A DNA stretch of 64,000 nucleotides from Xenophilus sp. AP218F (lineage in GTDB: Bacteria; Pseudomonadota; Gammaproteobacteria; Burkholderiales; Chromobacteriaceae). The DNA lies in contig NJIE01000009.1 of the NCBI GenBank assembly GCA_002213445.1, positions 1 to 64,000 of the forward strand, given 5' to 3'. The notes beneath the pieces are model-generated. The model had not been told where the DNA came from. It saw only the letters and a list, made by a program, of their open reading frames with translations, and searched no databases. This document shows, piece by piece, positions 5,019 to 59,930 of this stretch. A program made the translations under genes and the position numbers. Positions within the stretch are counted from its first letter, which is position 1, and every line of letters starts with the position of its first letter.

Positions 5019-5396
5019 TCAGTCGGCCTCAAGCGCCTGCAACCACTGCGCCAAGGATTGCGCCGAATCTTGTCCGCACTGCCGCTGGCAGGCGCGATCG
5101 CCGCGTCGCCACAACAGCACGCCCCGCTCGAGACGGAAGCGCCCGCCGCGGGCCAGAACGCCCCACTCCTCGCCTTCCTCCTGCCGCAACTGCAAGGCCT
5201 GCCCGCAAGCCTGGGCCAAGCGCAACAGACGCTGCCGCGCCGGCAAACGCTGCCACACCGTCTCGCGCTCCGCCTCGTCCATGAAGCACCATTGCGCGAT
5301 CTCGTCAAACGTCCGCCCGCAGCCGCGGCAGACGTCGTCGCCTACCGCGGTGCTGCACACCGCGACGCACGGCGAATCCGGTCGTTTCACATTCAT
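5019..5396 (-). CDS. DUF1289 domain protein
   Basis: A 125-residue soluble protein. Residues 6-40 hold the DUF1289 cysteine pattern SPCVAVCSTAVGDDVCRGCG followed by RTFDEIAQW: four cysteines that could bind a metal or cluster. The remainder is rich in Arg, Gln and Glu and is not recognisable. The frame is open to 5471, but the ATG at 5396 (MNVKRPDSPC) starts just before the domain as in other family members. The RBS is weak. It is probably co-transcribed with the methyltransferase downstream. Function is unknown. Confidence 0.75.
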   Translation of the reverse strand: MNVKRPDSPCVAVCSTAVGDDVCRGCGRTFDEIAQWCFMDEAERETVWQRLPARQRLLRLAQACGQALQLRQEEGEEWGVLARGGRFRLERGVLLWRRGDRACQRQCGQDSAQSLAQWLQALEAD

Positions 5397-52568: not shown

Positions 52569-54896
52569 TTACATCTTGCCGTGGAAGGTGCGGTTGATCA
52601 CGTCCAGCTGCTGTTCGCGAGTCAGCTTGACGAAGTTCACGGCGTAGCCCGACACGCGGATGGTCAGCTGCGGGTACAGTTCCGGGTGCTCCATCGCGTC
52701 CAGCAGGGTTTCGCGCTTGAACACGTTCACGTTCACGTGGAAGCCGCCGCCAGCGATGTTGCGCTCGCCGTCGCAATCGAACGGGGTGCAGTTGGCGCTG
52801 CTGAACTCGGTCGGGTGAGCCGAAGCGAAGCCGTCCAGGCAGTTGGCCAGGTTGGCGATGCGCTCTTCCGCGGTGTGGCCCAGCGCGTCCGGCGTAGCCG
52901 AAGCGGTCCAGCTGATGCCGTCCAGAGCGGAATCATACGGCAGCTTGGCAACCGAAGCACCTGCGGCCACAAAGCCCTTCACGTCGCGGCCGTTCATCGG
53001 GTTGGCGCCCGGGGAGAACGGTTCGCCGGCGCGGCGGCCGTCCGGGGTGTTGCCGGTCTTCTTGCCGTACACCACGTTGGAGGTGATGGTCAGCACCGAC
53101 TGGGTCGGCTTGGAGTCGCGGTAGAAGTACGGCTGGGCCTTGATCTTGTCCATGAAGGACTGGGTCAGCCACACGGCGATGTCGTCGACGCGGTCGTCGT
53201 TGTTGCCGAACGCCGGGTAGTCGCCTTCGATCTTGTAGTCAACCGCCAGGCCTTCTTCGTTGCGGATGATGTGCACCTTGGCGAACTTGACGGCGGACAG
53301 CGAGTCGGCGGCCACAGACAGGCCGGCGATGCCGCAAGCCATGGTGCGGACGATGTCGCGGTCGTGCAGCGCCATTTCGATGCGTTCGTAGGCGTACTTG
53401 TCGTGCATGTAGTGGATGCAGTTCAGCGCCTTGACGTAGGTGGCGGCCAGCCAATCCATCATCTTCTCGAACTTCGGCATCAGCTCTTCGTAGGTCAGCA
53501 CGTCGCCGGTGATCGGCTCGAAGCCCTTGGCCACCAGCGCGCCGGATTTCTCGTCGCGGCCGCCGTTGATCGCGTACAGCATGGCCTTGGCCAGGTTGGC
53601 GCGAGCGCCGAAGAACTGCATCTGCTTGCCGATCTTCATCGCGGACACGCAGCAGGCGATACCGTAGTCGTCGCCCCAGTACGGCAGCATCAGGTCGTCG
53701 TTTTCGTACTGGATGGCGCTGGTGTCGATGGATACCTTGGCGCAGAAGTTCTTGAAGCCTTGCGGGAAGCGGGTAGACCACAGCACGGTCAGGTTCGGTT
53801 CCGGCGCCGGGCCCAGGTTGTACAGGGTGTTCAGGAAGCGGAAGCTGTTCTTGGTCACCAGGGTGCGGCCGTCTTCGCCCATGCCGCCGATGGATTCGGT
53901 CACCCAGGTCGGGTCGCCGGAGAACAGTTGATCGTATTCCGGAGTGCGCAGGAAGCGGACGATGCGCAGCTTGATCACCAAGTCGTCGATCATTTCCTGA
54001 GCTTGTTCTTCGGTCAGCACGCCAGCGGCCAGATCACGCTCGATGTATACGTCGAGGAAGGTGGACACGCGGCCGAAGGACATGGCGGCGCCGTTCTGTT
54101 CCTTAACAGCGGCCAGGTAGGCGAAGTAAACCCACTGGATGGCTTCGCGAGCGTTGGCGGCCGGGCGGCTGATGTCGTAGCCGTACTTGGCGGCCATCTG
54201 ACGCAGTTCGTCCAGGGCGCGGAATTGCTCGGACAGCTCTTCGCGCTGACGCATCACGTCGTCGGTGAAGGTCACGTCGTTCAGTTCGGCGAACAGCTGC
54301 TGACGTTCCTTGCGCAGGAAGTCGGTGCCGTACAGGGCTACGCGGCGGTAGTCGCCGATGATGCGGCCGCGGCCGTAAGCATCCGGCAGGCCGGTGATCA
54401 CGCCGGATTTGCGGCAAGCCATGATTTCCGGGGTGTAAACGTCGAACACGCCCTGGTTGTGGCTCTTGCGATACTTTTCCCAGATTTCCTTGATGACCGG
54501 ATCGAGCTTGAAGCCGAAGGCTTCCAGGCCGTTTTCAACCATGCGCAAGCCGCCATTCGGCATGATGGCGCGCTTGAGCGGAGCGTCGGTTTGCAGGCCG
54601 ACGATCACTTCGTTGGCCTGGTCGATGTAGCCGGCGTCGTGAGCGGTGATGGAGGAAGCGCGGTCGGCGGATACGTCCAGCACGCCCTTGGCGCGTTCTT
54701 CCTTGAGCAGCACGCCCAGGGTATCCCACAGCTTTTTGGTACGTTCGGTAGCGCCAGCCAGGAAGCTATCGTCGCCTTCGTACGGCTTGTAGTTCAGTTG
54801 AATAAAGTTGCGGACGTCAACTTTAGTCTGCCATTCGCCGGCAGCGAAATCGCGCCACGGGTTGGCTTGAGCAGCATCGTGAGTCAGGGCATCCAT
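52569..54896 (-). CDS. pflB: Pyruvate formate-lyase (formate C-acetyltransferase)
   Basis: A 775-residue glycyl-radical enzyme that converts pyruvate and CoA to acetyl-CoA and formate without oxygen. The two active-site cysteines are in [14 protein letters not shown] (about 410), and the radical glycine is in [11 protein letters not shown] near the C-terminus (about 750). Length (E. coli 760) is normal. RBS AAGGAGG lies 6 nt before the ATG. The promoter has a perfect FNR box at class II spacing and operator-like palindromes over the core promoter. The codon-biased, clean sequence suggests high expression. pflA is downstream; focA is upstream on the same strand but separated by a terminator. 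Confidence 0.98.
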
Positions 54897-54926
54897 CTTT
54901 GCCTCCTTAACTTGGCTAGTCCAAAA

Positions 54927-54944
54927 GTGTTAGATATCGAACAT
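54927..54944. promoter_or_regulatory. DeoR/GlpR-like palindrome A (pflB promoter)
   Basis: GTGTTAGATATCGAACAT matches the palindrome ATGTTCGATATCGAACAT at 16 of 18 positions. It lies just downstream of the predicted -10 of pflB, where a bound repressor would block initiation. Confidence 0.6.
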
Positions 54945-54986
54945 ATAATACATTCGAAAGTGAACATAAAGCTTGATATTTATCAA
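54945..54986 (-). promoter_or_regulatory. FNR/Anr-dependent class II promoter of pflB
   Basis: A perfect FNR box TTGATAAATATCAA (54986-54973, minus strand) is followed after exactly 22 nt by the -10 hexamer TATTAT (54950-54945). This places the box at -41.5, the class II activating position. Anaerobic induction of pflB is strongly suggested. Confidence 0.85.
54950..54967. promoter_or_regulatory. DeoR/GlpR-like palindrome B (pflB promoter)
   Basis: ACATTCGAAAGTGAACAT matches the palindrome at 13 of 18 positions. It lies between the FNR box and the -10 of pflB. Confidence 0.45.
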
Positions 54987-55109
54987 GTAGCGCCTAGTGC
55001 GGCGACCATCCGTCAACAGTATAGCCGATCCCGCGCAAATCCTTGTTTTTCCTTTAAATTCAACCATCTTCGCCTGTTGCGGCGCAGCATTGCCTGTACC
55101 GGGCGCACT

Positions 55110-55127
55110 ACATTCGAAATCGAACAT
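55110..55127. promoter_or_regulatory. DeoR/GlpR-like palindrome C (upstream of pflB)
   Basis: ACATTCGAAATCGAACAT matches at 15 of 18 positions. It lies about 165-183 bp upstream of palindromes A and B, a distance at which two bound repressor oligomers could loop DNA. Confidence 0.55.
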
Positions 55128-55133
55128 GAAAAA

Positions 55134-55176
55134 TTAAAAAAACCGCACCAGTTAGTCATGCCTGGTGCGGTTTTGT
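55134..55176 (-). terminator. Terminator after focA
   Basis: On the minus strand AAAACCGCACCAG and CTGGTGCGGTTTT pair around a 10-nt loop and lead into TTTTTAATTTTT. It lies 10 nt past the focA stop and separates focA from the pflB promoter. Confidence 0.88.
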
Positions 55177-55186
55177 TCAACAGGAA

Positions 55187-56023
55187 TCAGGCTTTGCCGC
55201 CGATCCCGGCCGGCGCGGCCGTGGCCGAAGCCGGCTCCGCCGCCGCTTGCGGCAAGGTATGCCGCTCCAGCAGGTAAACCACCAGGCCCACGCCCAGCGC
55301 CCCGCCGACGATATTGCCAAGCGTAGCCGGGATCATGTTGTGAATGATATCAGCGGCATTCAGGCCCGGCATATTGTGCAGCTCGGCCAGCGCGAAGAAC
55401 GCCATGTTGGCGATGCTGTGCTCGTAGCCGGAAAAGAAGAACACGAACACCAGCAGCATCACCATCATCACCTTGGCCGCCTCGTTGGCCAGGCGCATCG
55501 GCACCCACACCGCCAGACAGATGATCCAGTTGCACAGCACGCCCTTCCAGAAGATCTCCAGCGAGGTGGCGTGCACCTTGTGCTCCACCACGTTGAACAG
55601 CAGATGATTCGCCGGCAAGGCGCCGAAGCCGCCGGCGCCGGCGAAGATGGCGGTGAAAGCCAGCACGCCGATCAGGTTGCCTATATATACGGTCGGCCAG
55701 CTGCACAGCAAGGCGCGCGGCGTCGCGCGTCCGGTCAGCGCGCCGACGGTGAAATACATGATGTTGCTGGTGAACAGCTCCACCTTGCACACGATGATGC
55801 TGACCAGCGCCACGCCGAAAAAGCCGGAGACCGCGACGTAGTAGCCCGGCGAGCCCGCGGCGAAGAACACCTGCCCCAGCTTCAGGCTCACCGCCAGCAC
55901 CACGGCGATCAGCGCGCCGGCCATCGCCGAGCTCAGCAGATAGCGTCCCGGCTCCTTATATAGTACCGCCTGCTTGGAAGCAGCCTCGCCAGCGACGTAG
56001 GCAAGTGTGGAAGGATGACTCAT
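55187..56023 (-). CDS. focA: Formate/nitrite transporter family protein, probable formate channel FocA
   Basis: A 278-residue FNT-family pentameric channel with six membrane segments. The TM2 break is in VALVSIIVCKVELFTSNIMY, and the pore-gating His of TM5 is in FFSGYEHSIANMAFF. A short charged and Ala/Pro-rich tail ends the protein. Its position next to pflB identifies it as FocA rather than the nitrite channel NirC. In E. coli focA and pflB share one transcript; here a terminator and a separate promoter split them. Its own promoter region has a perfect FNR box. Confidence 0.92.
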   Translation of the reverse strand: MSHPSTLAYVAGEAASKQAVLYKEPGRYLLSSAMAGALIAVVLAVSLKLGQVFFAAGSPGYYVAVSGFFGVALVSIIVCKVELFTSNIMYFTVGALTGRATPRALLCSWPTVYIGNLIGVLAFTAIFAGAGGFGALPANHLLFNVVEHKVHATSLEIFWKGVLCNWIICLAVWVPMRLANEAAKVMMVMLLVFVFFFSGYEHSIANMAFFALAELHNMPGLNAADIIHNMIPATLGNIVGGALGVGLVVYLLERHTLPQAAAEPASATAAPAGIGGKA

Positions 56024-56129
56024 GTTCGTTTCTTTTCAGATGATTGCGATAGTAGGAAGCGCCGACTGGAGCCAAGGCCTTGAAATTTCAGCCGCGCGCC
56101 AGCCCTGCTAATTGGTTCGGAAAAATTTT

Positions 56130-56147
56130 ATGTTCGTTTAGGCACAT
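56130..56147. promoter_or_regulatory. DeoR/GlpR-like palindrome D (focA promoter)
   Basis: ATGTTCGTTTAGGCACAT matches at 13 of 18 positions, with a perfect left half. It sits over the predicted core promoter of focA, next to the FNR box. Confidence 0.45.
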
Positions 56148-56153
56148 TTGTGT

Positions 56154-56167
56154 TTGATAACAATCAA
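56154..56167. promoter_or_regulatory. FNR/Anr box upstream of focA
   Basis: TTGATAACAATCAA, a perfect TTGATNNNNATCAA. On the minus strand a TAAAAT hexamer (56130-56125) follows after 23 nt, close to class II spacing, so focA should be induced without oxygen. Confidence 0.8.
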
Positions 56168-56367
56168 CAGACTCCGGGCTTTTCTGCCCCCAGGCCGCTT
56201 TGCCGCCCAAAAAAACCACGCAAGCGCTGACTTCCGCTTCGTCGCGCCCCGCCCCCTCTCGCCTGCCGCACCTGCCGCCAATCCGGCTTGGCCTATTGTT
56301 TGAAGCCCATTCCCCCTCATTTTTCAAGAATTAATTCGAACATTAAATTTTTCATTCATGATCATTT

Positions 56368-56385
56368 GTTTTCGATTTCGAACAT
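56368..56385. promoter_or_regulatory. DeoR/GlpR-like palindrome E (focA-sdaC region)
   Basis: GTTTTCGATTTCGAACAT matches at 15 of 18 positions. A further perfect right half-site, TTCGAACAT, lies 42 bp to the left (56335-56343). Confidence 0.55.
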
Positions 56386-56863
56386 TTTTAGCAGGCAAAA
56401 GCACCCTCCCGAATCGGCCCGTGAGAATTTTTTCATCAATTTCCCACGGCAAACCGCCTGCGAACACCCTACCCTCGCCCCCAGCTCGGCGCGCCTGCCA
56501 AAACGCCGCAACAACGGAAAAAATGCCTATTTATCAGTGCTTTAATTTAAAAATGGCGCCGATTATATGACAAAAAATTAACAATGTCTGCATTTTTGAC
56601 CTTCTTCGCCGCTCGGCCCCTGGAAGTCGCCGACGATGCTCTGCAGGCGTTTAAGAGAATTTCAATCAACCGAGCAAGCACTCGGACCGTCTTGGCCGCC
56701 ACAGCTGCGCCGGTCGAATTCTGAAATTTCACAAACTGGATATAAATTGCCTTATTTTAAATATTTTTGGCGTTTTTTTAATTAAAAAAGCATATTTTAT
56801 TTATAAAATTTCAATAATTGCATGTTTTTTTTAGAGCACATTTGCAAAAACCCTGCTTCCGGC

Positions 56864-56881
56864 ATGTTCGTTTGTTCATTT
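56864..56881. promoter_or_regulatory. DeoR/GlpR-like half-site upstream of sdaC
   Basis: ATGTTCGTTTGTTCATTT has a perfect left half (ATGTTCG) and a TTCG/TTCA direct-repeat character seen in some GlpR operators. It lies 15 bp before the sdaC-side FNR box. Confidence 0.35.
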
Positions 56882-56896
56882 GGCTACAAAATTATC

Positions 56897-56910
56897 TTGA
56901 TTAGAATCAA
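56897..56910. promoter_or_regulatory. FNR/Anr box upstream of sdaC
   Basis: TTGATTAGAATCAA, a perfect TTGATNNNNATCAA, 243 bp before sdaC. I found no -10 at class II distance on either strand, so it could act from another position or repress. Confidence 0.7.
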
Positions 56911-57016
56911 CTGATGTTCTTAAATGTGTACCTGGTCGGCTACAAAGCCCATTACGATGTGCAGCAACAAACCGAGAGACTTCTCGCCGGATAGCCAGAT
57001 GGACACTTCCTCTAGG

Positions 57017-57034
57017 ACATTCGGAATCGAAAGT
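57017..57034. promoter_or_regulatory. DeoR/GlpR-like palindrome H (sdaC leader)
   Basis: ACATTCGGAATCGAAAGT matches at 12 of 18 positions; the central TTCGNNATCGAA core is clear. It lies 118 bp before sdaC. Confidence 0.4.
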
Positions 57035-57152
57035 TGACGGCGGCAGGGCCAGCCCTGATGCAAGGTTTACAGAAGCGGGCTGGCGCAAGGCGAAAACCAG
57101 GCCGCCACGCTTCAAATACAAAATTGTTTTCACGATCTGAAGGCGTTTAATC

Positions 57153-58451
57153 ATGTCTCAAGCTATTGCAAGCTCCTCGTCCCAGGCCGGCACCTCCGGC
57201 TGGACCAAGCACGACACCGTCTGGATGCTCGGCCTTTACGGCACCGCCATCGGCGCGGGCGTACTGTTCCTGCCGATCAACGCCGGCATCGGCGGCCTGT
57301 GGCCCCTGATGCTGATGGCCATCCTGGCCCTGCCGCTGACCTTCTTCGCGCACCGCGGCCTGACCCGCTTCGTGCTGTCCGGCAGCAAGGAAGGCGCCGA
57401 CATCACTGAAGTGGTGGAAGAACACTTCGGCGTGGGCGCAGGCAAGATCATCACCCTGCTCTACTTCTTCGCCATCTACCCGATCCTGCTGATGTACAGC
57501 GTGGCCATCACCAACACCGTGCTGTCCTTCCTCAACCACCAGTTGCACATCTCGGTGGGCGATGGCATCGCCACCCGCGCCATCTTCTCGCTGGCGCTGA
57601 TCCTGGGCCTGATGTCCATCGTGCGTCTGGGCGGCCAGGTCATCGTCAAGGCGATGAGCATCCTGGTGTACCCGTTCGTTATCGTGCTGATGATGCTGGC
57701 CCTGTACCTGATCCCGCAATGGAGCTCCGCCGCCATCGACCACGCCGGCAGCCTGTCCGACGCCCTGTCCAACGGCGCGTTCTACAAGACCCTGTGGCTG
57801 GCCATTCCGGTCATGGTGTTCTCGTTCAACCACTCCCCGATCATCTCGTCCTTCGCCGTTGACCAGCGCAAGCTGCATGGCGACGACGCCGAGCAAGCTT
57901 CCAGCCGCGTGCTGATCCGCGCTCACATGATGATGGTTCTGACCGTGATGTTCTTCGTGTTCAGCTGCGTATTCAGCCTGAGCCCGGCTGACCTGGCTGC
58001 CGCCAAGGCCCAGAACATCTCCATCCTGTCCTACCTGGCCAACCACTTCCAGAACCCGATCATGGCCTGGGTGGCTCCGATCATCGCCATGGTCGCCATC
58101 AGCAAGTCCTTCCTGGGCCACTACCTGGGCGCCAAGGAAGGCTTCAACGGCCTGGTGATCAAGCAACTGCGCCAGAGCGGCAAGACCATCGAATCCGCCA
58201 AGCTGGACCGTTTCACCGCGATCTTCATGATCGTGACCTGCTGGATCATCGCCACCGTCAACCCGTCCATCCTGGGCATGATTGAAACCCTGGGCGGCCC
58301 GGTCATCGCCATGCTGCTGTTCCTGATGCCGATGTACGCCATCAACAAGGTTCCGGCAATGAAGAAGTACTCCGGCGCCGCCAGCAACATCTTCGTGGTA
58401 CTGATCGGCCTGATCGCCATCTCCGCCATCTTCTACGATCTGATCGCCTGA
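57153..58451 (+). CDS. sdaC: Serine transporter, HAAAP family (SdaC-like)
   Basis: A 432-residue amino acid permease with about eleven membrane segments. WMLGLYGTAIGAGVLFLP is the substrate-binding TM1 of the hydroxy/aromatic amino acid permease family, and MVFSFNHSPIISSFA is typical of SdaC/TdcC. It most likely imports L-serine with protons. It starts 70 nt upstream of the serine dehydratase gene. The N-terminus (MSQAIASSSSQAGTSGW) is Ser-rich. Threonine as substrate is possible, but the sdaA neighbour favours serine. Confidence 0.93.
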   Translation: MSQAIASSSSQAGTSGWTKHDTVWMLGLYGTAIGAGVLFLPINAGIGGLWPLMLMAILALPLTFFAHRGLTRFVLSGSKEGADITEVVEEHFGVGAGKIITLLYFFAIYPILLMYSVAITNTVLSFLNHQLHISVGDGIATRAIFSLALILGLMSIVRLGGQVIVKAMSILVYPFVIVLMMLALYLIPQWSSAAIDHAGSLSDALSNGAFYKTLWLAIPVMVFSFNHSPIISSFAVDQRKLHGDDAEQASSRVLIRAHMMMVLTVMFFVFSCVFSLSPADLAAAKAQNISILSYLANHFQNPIMAWVAPIIAMVAISKSFLGHYLGAKEGFNGLVIKQLRQSGKTIESAKLDRFTAIFMIVTCWIIATVNPSILGMIETLGGPVIAMLLFLMPMYAINKVPAMKKYSGAASNIFVVLIGLIAISAIFYDLIA

Positions 58452-58460
58452 TCGTGACCG

Positions 58461-58483
58461 GCCCGGCCGCCCAGCGGCCGGGC
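58461..58483 (+). terminator. Intercistronic hairpin between sdaC and sdaA
   Basis: GCCCGGCCGC-CCA-GCGGCCGGGC, a 10-bp GC-rich stem with no T run. More likely an mRNA-stability or processing element than a full terminator. Confidence 0.4.
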
Positions 58484-58520
58484 TTGCCCCTCCTGAATTC
58501 CATTCTGAAAGGTACACATC

Positions 58521-59930
58521 ATGTTCAGCATGGTTGATATCTACAAAATCGGCGTAGGCCCCTCCAGCTCCCATACCGTAGGCCCGATGAAAGCCGGCCA
58601 CCAGTTCCTCGGCTCGCTGAAGGAAACCGGCAAGTTCAACGCCGTCACCCGCGTGCACGTGGACTGCTACGGCTCGCTGGCCCTGACCGGCAAAGGCCAC
58701 TGCACCGACCACGCCATCATCCTCGGCCTGTGCGGCAACCAGCCCGACACCGTGGACCCGGAACACAGCCTGACCATCATCGGCGACGTGGAAAAAACCA
58801 AGCAACTGACCCTGGGCCGCACGCATCAGCGCGTCGCCTTCGGCATGGACTTCCACACCGCCAACCTGCCGCTGCACGAAAACGGCATGCAGATCCACGC
58901 TTTCGTCGGCGACGAATGCGTGCTGACCAAGACCTATTACTCGATCGGCGGCGGCTTCATCGTCGACGAAGAACACTTCAACCAGTCCAGCTGCAGCGAC
59001 GTGCCGGTGCCCTACCACTTCCTGTCGGCCCAGCAGCTGATGGACATGTGCGAAGAAACCGGCCTCTCCATCGCCGCGCTGGTGATGGAAAACGAAAAGG
59101 CCTTCCACGACGTCGCCGACATCCAGTCGCACTTCGGCCGCGTCTGGGACGTGATGAAGAGCAGCATGGAGCGCGGCATGCGCACCGAAGGCAACCTGCC
59201 CGGCCCGATGCGCATCCCGCGCCGCGCCCCGGCGCTGCACCGCATGCTGACCAGCTCGCTGCAAGTGGCCAACGACCCGCTGAACGTGATGGACTGGGTC
59301 AATATGTACGCGATGGCGATGTCGGAAGAAAACGCGGCAGGCGGCCGCGTGGTGACCGCGCCGACCAACGGCGCCTGTGGCGTGGTGCCGGCGGTTCTGG
59401 CCTACTACAACCACTTCATCCAGCCGCTGGACGACGACAGCTGCATGCGCTTCTACCTGTCCTCCGGCGCCATCGGCTGCCTGTTCAAGCTCAACGCCTC
59501 GATCTCCGGCGCGGAAGTGGGCTGCCAGGGCGAAATCGGCGTGGCCTGCTCCATGGCCGCCGCCGGTCTGACCGAACTGATGGGCGGCAGCCCGTCCCAG
59601 GTGTGCATGGCCGCTGAAATCGCCATGGAACACAATCTGGGCCTGACCTGCGACCCGGTGGGCGGCCAGGTGCAGATCCCCTGCATCGAGCGCAACGCCA
59701 TCGCCGCCGTCAAGGCCATCAACGCCGCGCGCATGGCCATGCACCGCGCCAGCAGCCCGAAGGTGTCGCTGGACAAGGTGATCGCCGCCATGTACGAAAC
59801 CGGCAAGGACATGGACGCCAAGTATCGCGAAACTTCCTGCGGCGGCCTGGCCCTGCAGATCGTCGCCGAAACCAAGGAAGTGCCCACCCAGGCCATCCGC
59901 TGGATTGACGACGCCAAGGTTCCGGCCTGA
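58521..59930 (+). CDS. sdaA: L-serine ammonia-lyase (L-serine dehydratase), single-chain type
   Basis: A 469-residue oxygen-sensitive [4Fe-4S] enzyme that converts L-serine to pyruvate and ammonia. The N-terminal beta domain begins MFSMVDIYKIGVGPSSSHTV. The cluster cysteines lie in TNGACGVVPA, GVACSMAAAG, LTCDPVGGQVQIPC. Length is near E. coli SdaA (454). AAGG precedes the ATG. With the upstream transporter it feeds pyruvate from imported serine, which PFL encoded 4 kb away could cleave under anaerobic conditions. Confidence 0.96.
   Translation: MFSMVDIYKIGVGPSSSHTVGPMKAGHQFLGSLKETGKFNAVTRVHVDCYGSLALTGKGHCTDHAIILGLCGNQPDTVDPEHSLTIIGDVEKTKQLTLGRTHQRVAFGMDFHTANLPLHENGMQIHAFVGDECVLTKTYYSIGGGFIVDEEHFNQSSCSDVPVPYHFLSAQQLMDMCEETGLSIAALVMENEKAFHDVADIQSHFGRVWDVMKSSMERGMRTEGNLPGPMRIPRRAPALHRMLTSSLQVANDPLNVMDWVNMYAMAMSEENAAGGRVVTAPTNGACGVVPAVLAYYNHFIQPLDDDSCMRFYLSSGAIGCLFKLNASISGAEVGCQGEIGVACSMAAAGLTELMGGSPSQVCMAAEIAMEHNLGLTCDPVGGQVQIPCIERNAIAAVKAINAARMAMHRASSPKVSLDKVIAAMYETGKDMDAKYRETSCGGLALQIVAETKEVPTQAIRWIDDAKVPA

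Follow-up and report, generated by a model that had tools for sequence, protein, structure and literature searches.

The 64,000-nucleotide stretch of DNA analysed here (the window; Xenophilus sp. AP218F, contig NJIE01000009.1) carries a cluster of palindromes in the non-coding gaps around pflB, focA and sdaC. We conclude, with a probability of roughly 77%, that these palindromes are operators of a GlpR-type DeoR-family repressor encoded outside the window (G000:C16:326360-327124, minus strand; G000 is the window's own genome), which would act with FNR in an AND gate at pflB and focA.

The palindrome cluster is real and lies far above chance. A sequence-only reading of the window had listed six copies scoring 12–16 of 18, and all six are present: the copies at 54927, 54950, 55110, 56130, 56368 and 57017 match ATGTTCGATATCGAACAT at 16, 13, 15, 13, 15 and 12 of 18 positions, respectively. 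With at most three mismatches allowed, the motif is found at three places in the window against 0.00 expected from 100 shuffles. A genome-wide scan at the same limit returned these three places only in 3,978,285 bases, all within the 2.1 kb pfl locus, and a reversed-pattern control yielded 0 matches. Matches of 12–13/18 are at background level in the window, where 23 places score at least 12/18, 16 of them outside the cluster; the proposal that copies occur only in non-coding gaps is thus true for the strong copies, while weaker matches are seen throughout. An Rfam search of positions 54000–58600 gave no match up to E = 1, and no known RNA element was seen there.

The window's genome encodes five DeoR-family genes. 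We scanned their neighbourhoods with a matrix trained only on the pfl-locus sites of the window and of five Chromobacterium species, which revealed one strong site, ATTTTCGATTCCGAATAG, ending 2 bases before the start codon of the candidate regulator gene. This protein is 86–100% identical in 61/61 genomes of the family (Chromobacteriaceae) that were searched, and all of them except G023 have a TTCG-N4-CGAA auto-site in the 16 nt that precede the start codon of its gene (60/61). Twelve different spacers occur between fixed arms, which is the pattern expected of an operator. The distant DeoR-family regulator that the sequence-only reading had postulated thereby gains comparative support. The auto-site controls covered 62 loci, of which two were misparsed and which included one genome twice. 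A score of 12 was reached by 56 of them; mononucleotide shuffles gave a mean of 0.43 and a maximum of two loci at that score, and permuted matrices gave a mean of 1.0, with none of 300 reaching the observed median. Outside the family, two of 12 relatives of the regulator, both from family f32, have a site of at least 15 within 300 bp upstream, not near the start codon. As a separate observation on the regulator start (L053 and orthologues), the 2-base gap between auto-site and start codon in the window's genome leaves no room for a ribosome binding site, and the mRNA may be leaderless.

The domain content of the candidate is that of a DeoR-family protein, with Pfam matches to PF08220 (N-terminal HTH_DeoR, 69.2 bits) and PF00455 (C-terminal DeoRC sensor, 160.9 bits), both above the cut-off; the same Pfam scan gave no GntR match. 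An AlphaFold2 model (mean predicted local distance difference test score, pLDDT, 88.5) was closest to E. coli DeoR (7l6l) and then mainly to ribose-5-phosphate isomerases, a likeness that suits a phosphorylated effector without naming one; the model adds family and fold only. The resemblance to GlpR operators, which the sequence-only reading had noted, is borne out by a score of 28.3 for the palindrome ATGTTCGATAACGAACAT upstream of E. coli K-12 glpD, which we take to be a GlpR operator; this score comes from the matrix trained only on Chromobacterium pfl-locus sites. A further E. coli K-12 site (L265:5625-5642, score 16.7) is present approximately 20 bases upstream of glpR, in the end of glpG.

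Counting of target sites across the family was anchored on start codons located by tblastn, with a site threshold of at least 15, and covered 38/38, 51/61 and 30/35 of the genomes with a match for pflB, aceE and adhE, respectively. Because related genomes are not independent, the number of events is smaller than these counts imply. For pflB, 32/38 upstream regions had a site, comprising 18/18 in the window's genus and 14/20 outside it (genus g2 9/9, g7 4/6, g3 1/4 and g5 0/1). Judging from the loci around focA relatives and from kinship tables, the window's genus is probably Chromobacterium or one close to it. For aceE (pyruvate dehydrogenase), the proportion was 38/51 at the threshold and 48/51 at a score of at least 12, mostly approximately 136–155 bp before the start codon, with every one of the ten genera represented by one genome or more. 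For adhE, 17/30 upstream regions had a site, and in the window's genus 17/18, 16 of these at −78 to −83. Permuted matrices gave means of 0.56, 0.56 and 0.34 and maxima of 11, 11 and 5 for pflB, aceE and adhE, none of 200 reaching the observed count for any of the three genes, and shuffled upstream regions gave 0.13–0.30 hits per gene set on average. With conserved sites at aceE and adhE as well, the predicted scope of the regulator is better described as the pyruvate node than as fermentation, the scope first suggested. In G044 (C3:1591341-1591637), the aceE start is interrupted by an in-frame stop in an 80%-complete assembly, either a sequencing error or a broken gene.

Some targets are weaker and less tested. 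A DctA/GltP-type symporter gene has a site upstream in the window's genome, G028 and G021 (L042:5316, L138:4259 and L139:4226), three genomes of the genus, and the gap upstream of gcvT has one in G017, G021, G005 and G002 (L136, L140, L143 and L151), spanning two genera, which suggests a possible link to glycine cleavage. In another genus, G039 (L049:5570-5587) has a perfect palindrome copy, ATGTTCGTTAGCGAACAT, between a malic enzyme gene and hydE, encoding an [FeFe]-hydrogenase maturase. The products of adhE, aceE, pflB, gcvT, the malic enzyme gene and hydE pass their NCBIfam models. At ackA-pta, a natural fermentation target, no site was found (best 10.0). Among the search patterns tried, ATNTTCG-N4-CGAANAT gave 0 matches in the window's genome, thus missing its own sites, and pointed to sites in G004, G028, G038, G039 and G044. 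Two matches inside a coding region were dropped, one to this pattern in G003 and one to a related sequence in the window's genome (C3:35126). The looser TTCGA-N2-TCGAA was rejected as too common (263 places versus 88 in the control), and an 18-position model (R1), which gave weak E-values only (0.1–10), was used for candidate finding only.

The pfl locus itself has the following features:

52569..54896, minus strand: pflB, pyruvate formate-lyase (NCBIfam TIGR01255, 1186.9 bits)
54927..54944, minus strand: O1, candidate pflB operator, approximately −6 to +12 of the inferred start site (16/18)
54945..54950, minus strand: inferred pflB −10, TATTAT, a by-eye reading absent from the promoter-scanner list
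54950..54967, minus strand: O2, candidate pflB operator, approximately −12 to −29, between the −10 and the FNR box (13/18)
54973..54986, minus strand: pflB FNR/ANR box TTGATATTTATCAA, exact match
55110..55127, minus strand: distal candidate operator between the focA end and the pflB promoter (15/18)
55187..56023, minus strand: focA, formate channel (NCBIfam TIGR04060, 237.1 bits, below the cut-off of 290.1)
56130..56147, minus strand: candidate focA operator, between the FNR box and the inferred −10 (13/18)
56154..56167, minus strand: focA FNR/ANR box TTGATAACAATCAA, exact match, kept in relatives
56368..56385, minus strand: distal candidate operator in the focA-sdaC gap (15/18)
56864..56881, plus strand: weak half-site ATGTTCG upstream of the sdaC FNR box (matrix score 8.4)
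56897..56910, plus strand: FNR/ANR box TTGATTAGAATCAA upstream of sdaC, spacer TAGAAT, exact match
57017..57034, plus strand: copy upstream of sdaC, of doubtful function (12/18), with no counterpart in aligned relatives
57153..58451, plus strand: sdaC, serine transporter (label from the sequence-only reading; an open frame whose gene order is kept in relatives)

Only three boxes in the window match TTGAT-N4-ATCAA exactly: those at 54973, 56154 and 56897, which lie upstream of pflB, focA and sdaC, respectively, and were absent from the sequence-only reading. On the minus strand, the pflB box (centre 54979.5) has TATTAT centred 32 bp away, and focA follows the same plan, with the FNR box at 56154–56167, the operator at 56130–56147 and then an AT-rich putative −10. 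The box-to-−10 distance is approximately 32–33 bp at both genes, the −10s being read by eye and not among the promoter-scanner hits; at pflB this fits the spacing of class II FNR promoters. The earlier claim that several copies overlap core promoters accordingly applies to 54927 and 54950 at pflB and 56130 at focA if the by-eye −10s are correct; the scanner lists none of them. A relaxed FNR box is found upstream of pflB in 36/38 loci, and no FNR box was found in the aceE and adhE loci examined. At sdaC, the FNR box is accompanied only by half-sites, so control by the proposed regulator is doubtful, and the earlier suggestion of control via the copy at 57017 finds no support in the aligned relatives. 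The TAGAAT spacer of the sdaC box, kept in 6/7 aligned sequences, is a possible −10, in which case FNR would act there as a repressor.

Loci around focA relatives have the order sdaA-sdaC-focA-pflB-pflA in five named Chromobacterium species and in a metagenome-assembled genome labelled Pseudogulbenkiania, where pflA is cut by the end of the locus. For the copies at 54927, 54950, 55110, 56130 and 56368, the five Chromobacterium relatives have a site in the corresponding position, in some cases a weak one. In the aligned gaps of these species, the symmetry of the palindrome is often kept through changed letters amid diverging surroundings; at 56368, a palindrome with altered letters is retained in all five. 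In the metagenome-assembled genome, the 54927 and 55110 copies have eroded. In the five Chromobacterium relatives, the half-sites at 56335 and 56864 survive only as half-sites, and 57017, which has no counterpart there, may be a chance match. FNR boxes are retained, with the pflB box inexact in one species (L007), and the focA operator is kept beside CATAAAAT. Most pflB upstream regions of the genus have GTGTTCAATATCTAACAC as the O1 counterpart, and a site at the O2 place scores at least 15 in 18/18 loci of the genus and in 9/9 genomes of genus g2. The distance from the distal copy at 55110 to O2 is 158–161 bp in 18/18 loci of the genus, which is compatible with looping, or simply with few insertions and deletions.

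Given conserved sites, an auto-site and the same type of site at aceE and adhE, we infer a scheme of binding, repression, looping and effector release along these lines. The protein would bind ATGTTCG-N4-CGAACAT as a dimer or higher oligomer and, at pflB and focA, sit between the FNR/ANR box and the −10, blocking RNA polymerase; the distal copies at 55110 and 56368 may stabilize repression, perhaps via looping. FNR/ANR would switch the pflB and focA promoters on without oxygen, accumulation of a phosphorylated metabolite would release the repressor, and the two together would form an AND gate. Besides the presumably FNR-activated pflB and focA, the repressor would control aceE and its own gene. 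The latter two are the probable core targets in the family, with pflB/focA, adhE and others added in some genera. The effector might be glycerol 3-phosphate, reporting dihydroxyacetone phosphate (DHAP) plus reduced nicotinamide adenine dinucleotide (NADH).

Several results weigh against the assignment of the palindromes to this regulator. The sites used to train the matrix and the pflB counts in Chromobacterium are not independent of each other, pflB sites are missing in 6/38 loci, the aceE site of the window's own genome scores 14.6, below the threshold, and adhE sites were found in 0/12 loci examined outside the window's genus. One of the 300 permuted matrices reached 52/62 auto-sites at a score of at least 12, against 56 observed, and in 10/12 of the regulator's relatives outside the family no site reaches 15. 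G023 has the regulator without an auto-site, yet a strong aceE site. The protein misses the GlpR equivalog cut-off (NF008154, 302.6 versus 331 bits), and a simple identification with GlpR is further countered by low scores at E. coli glpT/glpA (10.2) and glpF (4.1); GlpR sites in RegulonDB are described as weakly conserved (PMC7567609). As a side observation, G023 (L101 and L150) also has no pflB and adhE matches.

Other explanations of the sites can be weighed on the same data. Another DeoR-family member could read them, in particular a second GlpR-like protein from this family (L021, G000:C16:428226-428963), which has 48% identity to the favoured regulator; half-site overlap between paralogues is common. 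However, there is no site upstream of the L021 gene (best −1.9), its helix reads RQTIRRD-I-A rather than the PQTIRRD-(I/L)-N of the favoured regulator, and the other three DeoR-family genes are only 21–26% identical, with a best neighbourhood score of 10.0, which makes a paralogous reader improbable. An unrelated transcription factor with the DeoR-family gene as one of its targets is improbable to the same degree: a site before a gene marks a target, not a binder, and the auto-site search covered DeoR-family genes only, but the presumed GlpR operator at E. coli glpD is recognized by the matrix and the candidate has the helix stretch of GlpR.

It is slightly less probable again that the regulator binds but activates some or all of its targets. 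The location of most aceE sites, approximately 136–155 bp before the start codon, would allow this, but the pflB and focA sites overlap the inferred core promoter, and PMC7567609 describes GlpR of E. coli as a repressor. Chance or AT-rich composition would account for the 12–13/18 matches throughout the window, for a loose pattern found at 24 places versus 12 in the reversed control, and for one high-scoring site (L038, 19.6) that falls within a coding sequence. As an account of the whole cluster, this explanation is refuted by the near-zero expectation in shuffled DNA and shuffled upstream regions and by the retention of site positions across genera.

A broader proposal is that the Chromobacteriaceae GlpR-type repressor kept the GlpR DNA site, and perhaps glycerol-3-phosphate sensing, and swapped its targets, becoming a substitute for PdhR at pyruvate dehydrogenase, pyruvate formate-lyase, the formate channel and AdhE; with FNR/ANR it would gate mixed-acid fermentation as a glycolytic and redox overflow gauge. 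We regard this as tentative, and on balance doubtful. The overflow element follows from the synthesis of glycerol 3-phosphate from DHAP and NADH. According to the Reg-Seq authors, E. coli GlpR reports glucose indirectly, with glucose leading to low glycerol 3-phosphate and repression (PMC7567609). Were that logic to apply here, glucose would repress these genes instead of releasing them, a point against the overflow interpretation.

Among the matches listed, a literature search that did not extend to subscription papers or RegPrecise gave no account of a DeoR-family protein regulating these genes in Chromobacterium or other betaproteobacteria. Two genes named as glycerol-3-phosphate repressors, CV0112 and CV0136, are listed for C. 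violaceum in PMC3135505, and one of them may correspond to the candidate regulator. Our assignment of the palindromes to the GlpR-type repressor provides a probable function, and a probable set of targets, for a DeoR-family protein that is very conserved. If true, annotation by similarity to GlpR would mislead in Chromobacteriaceae, and the system would be a clean case of a regulator keeping its operator while its targets change, reaching a regulon like that of the unrelated PdhR.

The candidate regulator shares with E. coli GlpR its domain make-up, 50% sequence identity and the recognition-helix stretch PQTIRRD-(I/L)-N. The two differ in their targets: those predicted here are aceE, pflB, focA, adhE and the regulator gene itself, and the upstream regions of glpFK (11.0) and glpD (2.8) in the window's genome have no such site. 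In E. coli, the upstream regions of focA-pflB (best 9.4), adhE, pdhR, aceE and sdaC all score below 10. In place of the palindrome, the glpFK and glpD upstream regions of the window's genome (L084:9126-9635 and 5135-5310) contain stretches resembling TTCGTTTT, to which the other GlpR-like protein may bind.

A likeness to PdhR would lie in control of aceE, 38/51 upstream regions of which have the DeoR-type site here. PdhR, however, is a pyruvate-responsive GntR-family protein, whereas the candidate has DeoR-type domains, and the PdhR operator differs from the palindrome. An expansion of the PdhR regulon to pflBA and focA is reported for Shewanellaceae, and in Vibrionales the HexR regulons reportedly take in fermentation genes along with the glycine cleavage system (both PMC5343134). 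The candidate regulator is unlike HexR in protein family and operator. HexR belongs to the RpiR family and has a different operator. In E. coli, focA-pflB is FNR-dependent, and the TTGAT-N4-ATCAA boxes upstream of pflB and focA here are a parallel; the difference is the GlpR-type candidate operator between FNR box and inferred −10, a site that E. coli focA-pflB lacks. Taken together, these comparisons look like a GlpR-type regulator and its operator having moved from the glycerol-3-phosphate genes to the pyruvate node, to be joined with FNR at pflB and focA.

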